NCBI GenBank assembly: GCA_030618545.1
Contig: JAUXDH010000007.1
Span: forward strand, 1-35,621
Direction of reading: 5' to 3'
DNA from: Chlorobiota bacterium
GTDB taxonomy: Bacteria > Bacteroidota > Bacteroidia > Bacteroidales > F082
DNA length: 35,621 bases
This document shows positions 23,283 to 26,246 of the stretch, piece by piece (the first letter of the stretch is position 1; each line of letters begins with the position of its first letter). Made by a program: the position numbers and the translations under genes. The notes under the pieces were generated by a model that did no database searches, had not been told where the DNA came from, and was given only the letters and a program-made list of their open reading frames with translations.

Positions 23283-25220
23283 ATGATCAAGCCCGGAACC
23301 ATACAGCAAATCATAGAAACATCCCGTATTGAGGAAGTTGTAGGAGACTTTGTTACCTTGAAAAAGCGAGGGGCAAATTACCTGGGGTTGTGCCCTTTCC
23401 ATAATGAAAAGACACCATCATTTTCTGTTTCTCCAAGCAAGGGGATATACAAATGTTTTGGTTGTGGAAAAGCAGGTAACGCTATTGGCTTTATCATGGA
23501 ACATGAGCATTACTCCTATCCTGAAGCCTTAAAGTTAATAGCAAAGAAATATGGCATCGAGATTGAAGAAGAGGAGATGACTCCTGAATTGCAGCAGGAA
23601 CTGGATGAAAGGGAAAGCATGTTTGCTGCAAACAGTTTCGTATCAAAATATTTCAGCAAAAACCTTATTCATACCGAAGAAGGAAAATCAATTGGCCTTT
23701 CCTACCTTAAGGAAAGGGATTTCCTGGAATCGACTATCGAGAAGTTTCAGCTTGGTTATGCTATCGACAAATGGGAGGATTATTCCAGGCACGCACTCAG
23801 CAACGGATACAAGAAAGAAGTGCTGATTAGTACCGGCATGAGCATCGCTAAAGACACCAGGCTTATTGACAGGTTCAGGGGGAGGGTGATCTTCCCTATC
23901 CACAACCTTACCGGTAAGGTGATCGGTTTTGGCGGAAGGATACTGTCGTCAGAAAAATCCACCGCCAAATACATTAACTCCCCCGAGTCGGACATCTATA
24001 ATAAAAGCAAGACTCTGTATGGGATCTACTTTTCACGCGGCAGTATCGTGAAAAGCGACAATTGCTTCCTGGTAGAAGGATACACTGATGTGATCTCACT
24101 CCACCAGGCAGGGATTGAAAATGTGGTGGCCTCATCCGGAACTTCTTTAACGGTGGATCAGATCAAACTCATAAAAAGATTCACCCAAAACATCACTATA
24201 CTATTTGACGGTGACCCCGCCGGGTTGAAAGCCGCATTTCGTGGAATTGATCTTATTCTGGAAGAGGGCATGAATGTGAAAATCGTACTTTTCCCTGATG
24301 GCGAAGACCCCGATTCTTATGTCCGAAGCCATCGTTCGAGTGAGGTGGAATCGTTTATCACCAATAAAGCAGTTGATTTCATCAAATTCAAAACAAACCT
24401 TTTGCTGGATGAAACAGTGGGTGATCCTGCCGGGAAGGCAAAGCTGATCAAGGATATTGTGGAGACCATCTCATATATCCCGGATGGCATCAACAGGACA
24501 GTTTACATCAAGGAGTGCAGTGTAATGCTGGATGTGCCTGAACAGACGCTGATGAATGAGCTGAATAAAAGATTGCGTCAGCGATTCCGCAGAAGGACAC
24601 AGACTCCCGAAGCCATTATTCCTGAACCGGAGACAAAAAGAGAGATTTCGGATCAGTTAAAAATCGACCCACTTGATATAGCTGCACATGAAGAACACCT
24701 TATTCGGGTGCTGCTGTTGTATGGCAACCTGACAATCAAACTCAAAGATCCCAATGGAGAAATTGATTGGGAAGGGCCGGTTTCAGAATATATAATCAAT
24801 GACCTGGAGCATGAGCAGATCACCTTTGAAAATGACATTTTCAACGAGATCCTGGCCGAATATATAGCAGCGAAAGAAAAAGGCCTTGAAGTGGATGAGC
24901 TATACTTTATCAATCATACAAGGACAAGCCTGGCTACAACTACCATCGAACTCATTGCCAGTCAGCACAACCTCAGTGAGAACTGGAAGAGCAACAAAAT
25001 ATATGTAAAAACAGAGCAGGATCAATTGAGCAACCTCACTATTGCTTCAGTGTTATCCCTGAAATCCAGGCTTATTGGAAAACAATTAAAGCACTTGGTA
25101 GAGGATATGAAAGTGACCGAGGATGACGGACAGATATTCATCTTGCAACAGCAGTTTTTCGAGTTGAAAAGTATCGCCAACGAAATCGACGACGTACTCA
25201 GTCGGACTTTTAATTATTAG
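23283..25220 (+). CDS. dnaG: DNA primase DnaG
   Basis: CHC2 zinc finger 'LCPFHNEKTPSFSVSPSKGIYKCFGCGKAGNAIGFIM'; Toprim 'FLVEGYTDVISLHQAG', 'ILFDGDPAG'. Confidence 0.97.
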   Translation: MIKPGTIQQIIETSRIEEVVGDFVTLKKRGANYLGLCPFHNEKTPSFSVSPSKGIYKCFGCGKAGNAIGFIMEHEHYSYPEALKLIAKKYGIEIEEEEMTPELQQELDERESMFAANSFVSKYFSKNLIHTEEGKSIGLSYLKERDFLESTIEKFQLGYAIDKWEDYSRHALSNGYKKEVLISTGMSIAKDTRLIDRFRGRVIFPIHNLTGKVIGFGGRILSSEKSTAKYINSPESDIYNKSKTLYGIYFSRGSIVKSDNCFLVEGYTDVISLHQAGIENVVASSGTSLTVDQIKLIKRFTQNITILFDGDPAGLKAAFRGIDLILEEGMNVKIVLFPDGEDPDSYVRSHRSSEVESFITNKAVDFIKFKTNLLLDETVGDPAGKAKLIKDIVETISYIPDGINRTVYIKECSVMLDVPEQTLMNELNKRLRQRFRRRTQTPEAIIPEPETKREISDQLKIDPLDIAAHEEHLIRVLLLYGNLTIKLKDPNGEIDWEGPVSEYIINDLEHEQITFENDIFNEILAEYIAAKEKGLEVDELYFINHTRTSLATTTIELIASQHNLSENWKSNKIYVKTEQDQLSNLTIASVLSLKSRLIGKQLKHLVEDMKVTEDDGQIFILQQQFFELKSIANEIDDVLSRTFNY

Positions 25221-25242: not shown

Positions 25243-25690
25243 ATATAAAAAACTACCGGGAACAAACTCTTGCGAATCTATTCCCGGTCACTCCCTTCTC
25301 TGCCGTAGCGTTGAAGTTTGCGGCAGGTTGTGTTATTACGGCTGTTTACTTACTTCCACCCCATAGGGCTTCTGCTTTCTTCAGGCTTTCTTCCGGTTTC
25401 CGCCTTGCGGCTTCATCCTTCATCCGTCCCGGTTTCAATGTGGCTCCTCAATTTGGCTTCCCTTGCGGGTTACCTCTTTGAGATGGGTCCGGTTCCGCTT
25501 GCGCTTCCTCTTCTCCTGCCCTGGTCCCCCTTGCGGGTTTCCTGCTTGGTCGGGTCTGGTTTCCTCCGGTTGCCCTTTGGTTCCCTTTCCCTTCCAGGTG
25601 GTCCGGTCCAACTTCTTTCCGATTGCTCTTCTGTCCGTTTTTCCTTTCCGGGCTTCATTAAAACCTGCCCTTTATCTTCACCTGCTGACA
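25243..25690 (-). ncRNA. candidate large structured RNA (~440 nt), family not identified
   Basis: Minus-strand promoter at 25691-25723; GCAA-capped hairpins (plus-strand loops TTGC at 25405-25408, 25463-25466, 25531-25534, and 25270-25273 in the terminal hairpin); long-range complementarity 25662-25669 / 25322-25329; terminator hairpin 25255-25288 followed by a T-run. Confidence 0.65.
25249..25288 (-). terminator. terminal hairpin/intrinsic terminator of the minus-strand ncRNA candidate
   Basis: Minus strand: accgggaa-tag-attc-GCAA-gagt-ttg-ttcccggt-ag-tttttt; 8-bp perfect outer stem (25281-25288 / 25255-25262). Confidence 0.75.
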
Positions 25691-25723
25691 CAAATGTACG
25701 GCGATATTTTATAGATGCGCAAA
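25691..25723 (-). promoter_or_regulatory. putative promoter of the minus-strand ncRNA candidate
   Basis: On the minus strand, TTTG (25723-25720) - 21 nt - TACATTTG (25698-25691), matching the Bacteroidetes TTTG/TAnnTTTG layout. Confidence 0.6.
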
Positions 25724-25793
25724 TTTCCATAGTGGTTAAAACACACAAGAAATTAACAGGAGTTATCAACAATTGTTAATTATTCACAACAGA

Positions 25794-26246
25794 TTAATTT
25801 TCACGTATCTTCAGGAAGAATTCCTGTAAAAGCTGTTTACTTTCTTCCTCAAGTACACCCGAAGAAATTTGGGTAGAGGGATGCAAAACCGGTTTTTTAA
25901 CGAGGGAATATCCCCGTTTTTCGTCAGAAGCACCATACACAATTTTTCCTATCTGAGTCCAGAAAGCCGCCCCTGCACACATCAGGCATGGTTCAAGGGT
26001 GACGTAAAGGGTGCAATCTTTCAGGTATTTCCCTCCAATAAATCCTGAAGCCGCAGTAAAAGCCTGCATCTCGGCATGGGCAGTCACATCAGTTAAGGTT
26101 TCGGTTAGGTTATGTGTTCGGGCAATTATCTGGTTTTTGCAAACTATGACAGCCCCCACCGGTACTTCATCTTTATCAAAAGCTTTTTGAGCTTCCTTTA
26201 AAGCTTCTTTCATAAAGTGTTTATCGGAAAAAATGGTTAATGTCAT
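25794..26246 (-). CDS. tadA: nucleoside deaminase / tRNA-specific adenosine deaminase (TadA-like)
   Basis: 'TAHAEMQAFTAAS' (HAE) and 'TLYVTLEPCLMCAGAAFWTQIGKIVYGASDEKRGY' (PCxxC). Confidence 0.85.
   Translation of the reverse strand: MTLTIFSDKHFMKEALKEAQKAFDKDEVPVGAVIVCKNQIIARTHNLTETLTDVTAHAEMQAFTAASGFIGGKYLKDCTLYVTLEPCLMCAGAAFWTQIGKIVYGASDEKRGYSLVKKPVLHPSTQISSGVLEEESKQLLQEFFLKIREN

Follow-up and report, generated by a model that had tools for sequence, protein, structure and literature searches.

A ~440-nt structured RNA between tadA and dnaG belongs to a previously uncatalogued RNA family of Bacteroidota

Introduction

What occupies the gap of ~570 bp between dnaG (23283-25220, plus strand) and tadA (25794-26246, minus strand), two convergent genes of a Bacteroidota draft genome of 2.77 Mb? 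This question was raised by a window of 35,621 nucleotides, by which we mean the whole stretch of DNA that was analysed. A preliminary description had proposed that the gap holds a large structured RNA on the minus strand, with its own promoter and terminator, and had called for an Rfam scan, a collection of homologues and a check of covariation. To our knowledge, bacteria have few large structured RNAs, and the known examples have each turned out to involve an RNP, a ribozyme or an unusual assembly. Our analysis showed that the ~440-nt RNA belongs to an RNA family that had not been catalogued before and that is present across several Bacteroidota lineages.

Results

Layout of the locus

The minus strand of the gap carries, in order, an upstream element, a promoter, an RNA body of ~440 nt, a GCAA-capped hairpin and a T-run (Table 1). 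The gene lies downstream of tadA and has the same direction. The RNA body is purine-rich, with a GC content of 0.53-0.59 compared with ~0.40 in the surroundings, and the plus-strand AT skew falls to -0.76. Its 5' end was inferred from the promoter, and its 3' end was placed at the T-run. The promoter (TTTG-N21-TACATTTG), the final hairpin with its T-run and the GCAA hairpins of the preliminary description are all present. A TAnnTTTG motif (spacer +/-1) is located 5-8 nt ahead of the closing helix, P1, in nearly all homologues.

Table 1. Features of the RNA locus, in positions of the window.
Feature	Positions	Strand	Evidence or remark
Upstream element, TGT(T/G)NATAA-like units around AACAATTGTT (25777-25768)	25738..25788	-	fixed distance, unit enrichment, near-unique per genome
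TGT(T/G)NATAA-like units	25788-25781, 25781-25774, 25771-25764, 25758-25751, degenerate ~25748-25738	-	
Bacteroidota-type promoter	25691..25723	-	-33 TTTG 25723-25720, 21-nt spacer, -7 TACATTTG 25698-25691; sequence
Non-coding RNA gene body, ~440 nt	25247..25690	-	syntenic homology, covariation, no Rfam match
P1 5' strand GCAGGU, closing helix	25680..25685	-	97.1% of cells paired, two-sided changes at 4/6 pairs, 53 sequences
Core internal loop, 5' side, GAAGAUAAAG	25670..25679	-	conserved; GAGRGAUAAAA in other lineages
P2 5' strand GGC	25667..25669	-	82.4% paired (an underestimate, given misalignment of part of the P2 rows: short type, L013/L014), two-sided changes at 3/3 pairs, 53 sequences; 96.7% in close homologues
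P3 5' strand GGUUUUAAUG	25656..25665	-	10-bp helix, 95% paired, 4 pairs with two-sided changes
CCC-GCAA-GGG hairpin, variable domain	25528..25537	-	100% of cells paired, compensatory CG/UA changes (helix 10)
GC-GCAA-GC hairpin, variable domain	25497..25504	-	helix 13 of consensus fold
CCC-GCAA-GGG hairpin, variable domain	25460..25469	-	helix 15 of consensus fold
P3 3' strand CAUUGAAACC	25431..25440	-	pairs with P3 5' strand
GCC-GCAA-GGC hairpin, variable domain	25402..25411	-	GCAA loop kept in 9/9 other close homologues; stem outside consensus fold
Hairpin A, GCCC-UAUG-GGGU	25358..25369	-	100% paired (helix 19); UACG-like loop in relatives
P2 3' strand GCC	25340..25342	-	same covariation as P2 5' strand
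Core internal loop, 3' side, GUAAUAACACA	25329..25339	-	conserved; RYAAUAACNGYA in other lineages
P1 3' strand ACCUGC	25323..25328	-	covariation
Hairpin B, adjoins P1, inner loop C-UACG-G	25289..25322	-	helices 20-22, 100% paired
Intrinsic terminator, GCAA-capped hairpin and T-run	25247..25288	-	two-sided changes in 10/15 stem pairs (close homologues, helix 23)

Fold and covariation

A blastn search of 61 relatives recovered full-length homologues with 66-78% identity in five of five genomes of the same genus and, outside that genus, in several genera of the family, and tadA and dnaG flank the homologues of the same GTDB family wherever the contig reaches. RNAalifold applied to 10 full-length homologues yielded a fold of 87 pairs, 36 of which show two-sided compensatory changes, so that both the homologues and the covariation sought by the preliminary description were found. 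In this fold 94.7% of cells pair, compared with 31-45% after sliding of the partner strand, and none of 500 shuffles was as good, the fold being favoured over the slid versions by its derivation from the same alignment. In the core, which was compared over 53 sequences, 92.2% of cells are paired versus at most 44% when slid, and the 3' module shows two-sided changes in 18 of its 30 pairs. Syntenic homologues at this level of identity, together with the covarying structure, place the RNA signal beyond chance. Folding of the single sequence was mildly better than that of shuffles (z = -1.9; 3/100 shuffles equally stable) and would not have revealed the structure alone.

With regard to the closing helix, P1 covaries across lineages, with AU:31/GC:22 at one pair and CG:18/GC:17 at another (53 sequences). 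The 3' strand was located partly by complementarity in the multi-lineage alignment, which favours P1; two landmarks, the preceding ANAATAAC motif and the following hairpin B, also pin down the position of this strand, and RNAalifold found P1 unaided. The preliminary description had assigned the closing helix to GGCAGGTT (25669-25662) and AACCTGCC (25329-25322). Both segments exist at these positions, but the covariation pairs the two P1 strands instead, so the proposed helix gives way to P1, which uses another copy of its motif close by. The 5' segment is in fact split, its GGC belonging to P2 and GGUUUUAAUG to P3. The competing ctgccg/cggcag hairpin, from which two conformations had been suggested, is not conserved, whereas hairpin B in its place is.

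A common architecture

The window locus possesses the promoter, P1, core loop, P2, hairpin B and terminator by which we define the new family. The same order was found in 63 loci: TAnnTTTG, 5-8 nt, P1, a GARRGAUAAA strand, P2, a variable domain, P2', an ANAAUAACNGYA strand, P1', hairpin B and the terminator. The 3' hairpin of the members usually has a UACG loop. Counted from P1, members range from 221 nt (L134) to 621 nt, and a long type reaches ~890-900 nt (L115, L145, L102, L112). Sequence outside the core diverges fast.

Distribution and genomic context

R1, a covariance model built on the 3'-terminal 140 nt of the RNA, had matches at E<=0.01 in 41 of the 174 genomes of the family, representing 11 of 16 genera. 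In the class it matched 24 of 297 genomes, some weak class-level matches being to the terminator only and left out of membership. A further count gave 33 carriers among 396 class genomes. No R1 match was obtained in genera g5, g6 and g11 of the same family (f1), for which loss and divergence are both possible. The distribution is patchy, and part of the absences may reflect weak models. A DNA pattern of the core, run on one genome per species, gave 69 matches, and R1 confirmed 47 of these (E<0.001). Every confirmed match is in a record whose label is Bacteroidota or Chlorobiota MAG, and among the latter several are the same contigs as those of the window's own genus. Further homologues, with other neighbours, occur in other Bacteroidales/Marinilabiliales and in Cytophagales. 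Named carriers include Rhodonellum psychrophilum, Mariniphaga sediminis and Mangrovibacterium lignilyticum, and related sequences are present in MAGs assigned to Roseivirga and Tangfeifania.

Two loci of family f68 (L077, L078) are possible very diverged members: they have TTTACACAAAACTTGGTGC or a similar sequence and a CACGG/TATGG hairpin, and the 5' P1 strand was not found in them.

Some genomes hold two copies of the RNA in different contexts, for example L112/L116, L128/L138 and L147/L152, and L151/L159 is another two-copy pair; in three of these four pairs the contigs break within the RNA, which is what near-identical copies would be expected to produce. The neighbouring genes are lineage-specific: tadA and dnaG here and, by eye, SRAP, biotin carboxylase, creatininase, GNAT and PhoH-like genes elsewhere. 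Comparison of these neighbours revealed no partner gene common to different lineages and no partner protein. That the neighbours differ between lineages argues for a trans-acting gene. An origin in a phage or plasmid element was considered and rejected: viral scans returned chance-level motif matches only, the model match was on the opposite strand or weak, and blastn against phages and plasmids gave no match to the RNA.

Coding potential

The window contains open frames of 100 and 58 codons, and the gene lies behind tadA with the same orientation, as might be expected of a short peptide gene or of a by-product of the convergent gap (a tadA 3' UTR or a bidirectional terminator). The frames, which the preliminary description had taken for artefacts, are broken in the homologues by stops and non-triplet gaps, and no reading frame is kept among them. 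In addition, the RNA has its own promoter and is present without tadA or dnaG in other lineages. Such an origin is therefore extremely improbable. Homology, covariation, the lack of a conserved frame and the absence from Rfam agree with the large minus-strand RNA first proposed, and we regard it as close to certain that the minus strand from 25690 to 25247 is a structured non-coding RNA gene.

Comparison with known RNA families

The scan with Rfam 15 assigned no family at gathering score to the RNA, in the window or at 30+ homologous loci, and none at relaxed E-values: the window stretch had no match at E<=10, and the homologues had none at E<=5, GOLLD, ROOL and OLE included. No published description of the family was found in the open-access literature (preprints and subscription papers were outside this scope), which is weak evidence.

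It is very unlikely that the RNA is a diverged form of a known housekeeping RNA, namely RNase P, tmRNA or 6S/Bacteroidales-1. RNase P RNA (RF00010) resembles it in having a core closed by 5'/3' pairing and variable peripheral domains, but is a separate gene in the same genomes: it was found elsewhere in eight of eight genomes tested, the sole match in genome G000 being at C9:4055-4470, and RF00010 has no match at the RNA. The window contains no tRNA or tmRNA (RF00023), and a full tmRNA is encoded elsewhere in 10 of 14 genomes; the preliminary description had likewise seen no signature of RNase P or tmRNA. The 6S role does appear vacant at the sensitivity used, since at E<=0.001 RF00013 was absent in 8 carrier genomes and Bacteroidales-1 (RF01693) was not detected in 14. 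Both 6S (RF00013) and 6S-Flavo (RF01685) are, like the new RNA, stand-alone trans-acting RNA genes. However, 6S RNA forms one long hairpin of ~190 nt with a central bubble, whereas the new RNA is multibranched with a two-strand conserved core, and none of the 6S, 6S-Flavo and Bacteroidales-1 models matches it. Bacteroidales-1 is also a Bacteroidales non-coding RNA with a Bacteroidota promoter, a terminator and no protein, but its sequence is quite different: by our reading it is a long single hairpin of 179 positions resembling 6S, without the P1/P2 core motif. Weak Bacteroidales-1 matches moreover lie at other loci in carriers (G466).

Two side observations concern 6S RNA itself. A sub-threshold 6S-Flavo match (36 bits against a cut-off of 85) at G000:C180:12476-12610 (L203) is a possible diverged 6S RNA, and sub-threshold Bacteroidales-1 matches with 6S-like hairpins are spread over many families of the Bacteroidia class sample (for example L216-L221), the best E-value being 1e-8. 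Possibly, the Bacteroidales-1 model in Rfam captures only part of what is a 6S RNA widespread in Bacteroidota.

The upstream element

Of 58 loci, 38 have the AACAATTGTT palindrome at a distance of 85-87 bp ahead of P1. Units of the TGT(T/G)NATA type occur at a mean of 2.4 per 140 bp of locus, compared with 0.25 in shuffles, and most loci show the arrangement TTATTAACAATTGTTNATAAC-N3-TGTTNAT...TGTGNAT upstream of the promoter. All exact TATNAACAATTGTTNATA matches are at the RNA (19 genomes examined, matches in 7), and the few other matches with one mismatch in these 19 genomes are in unrelated places, several inside genes. Four Cytophagales loci (L095, L098, L099, L101) have no upstream element. 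We read the element as a putative dedicated regulatory site. The units resemble DnaA boxes, and exact TGTGGATAA is present in L134 and L155. A replication origin, suggested by this resemblance, was rejected for genome G016, as the GC skew keeps its sign across the RNA (contig C5, 920 kb sampled).

Discussion

The boundaries of the gene, its fold, its conserved core and its independence from its neighbours emerge from sequence comparison. On this basis, we consider it probable that the RNA is a stand-alone trans-acting gene serving as an RNP scaffold, with an upstream element that is probably bound by a dedicated transcription factor. The comparison shows that P1 and P2 close the 5' and 3' ends around the conserved asymmetric internal loop, with the 3' hairpin adjoining P1, that the peripheral domain varies from short to very long, and that the RNA has no constant neighbour. 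In the proposed mechanism, the P1/P2 internal loop would be the binding site for a protein or a ligand, which would make an RNP scaffold, as in the case of OLE and 6S RNAs, the most likely role; by this analogy, we judge the scaffold role itself to be reasonably likely. The upstream element would set the level of the RNA through its transcription factor, for which DnaA is one candidate.

A trans-acting base-pairing sRNA, whose accessible purine-rich stretches, shielded and displayed by the closed core, would base-pair with mRNAs, would also be compatible with an independent gene, with the purine-rich single strands of the predicted fold and with expression that appears to be regulated through the upstream element. 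Nevertheless, the conserved part is the closed core and not an exposed seed, and the purine-rich region diverges quickly between lineages, which makes this role unlikely.

OLE is known from Gram-positive bacteria, and GOLLD and ROOL are linked to phages. All three resemble the new RNA in being large, independent and highly structured, with GNRA-rich peripheral domains and a biochemical role that is not known. The new RNA differs from them in its core and its chromosomal location in Bacteroidota, and it has no sequence match to them in Rfam scans. GOLLD, like the new RNA, has one conserved and one variable region, and RNA-only oligomers of the GOLLD/ROOL/OLE kind are known (PMC12286853). An RNA-only assembly or ribozyme of this kind, in which GNRA-capped hairpins make tertiary or quaternary contacts, would also accommodate the many GCAA and UACG hairpins, the 3x3 purine internal loops and a periphery expandable to ~900 nt. 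Given the missing Rfam similarity to these families and the lack of credible matches in the phages and plasmids searched, we consider such an assembly quite improbable, and we retain the RNP scaffold as the preferred role.

The family is spread over several Bacteroidota families and is missing from Rfam, and its core is compact and testable. Cultured genera (Mariniphaga, Mangrovibacterium, Rhodonellum) are among the carriers, so the RNA is open to deletion, pull-down and structural studies, and for the last of these the minimal Cytophagales members of ~220-250 nt are of a realistic size. Through the fixed upstream element, the regulator of the RNA could be approached directly. A bolder reading, which is conceivable but doubtful, is that the family represents an ancient new class of Bacteroidota RNA machine, in which the P1/P2 loop core would bind a protein or catalyse a reaction, lineage-specific domains of 100-800 nt would be attached to it, and the dose would be set via the DnaA-box-like element at its fixed distance. 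If this were true, such a dosing element would couple the RNA machine to the cell's state of replication or growth.
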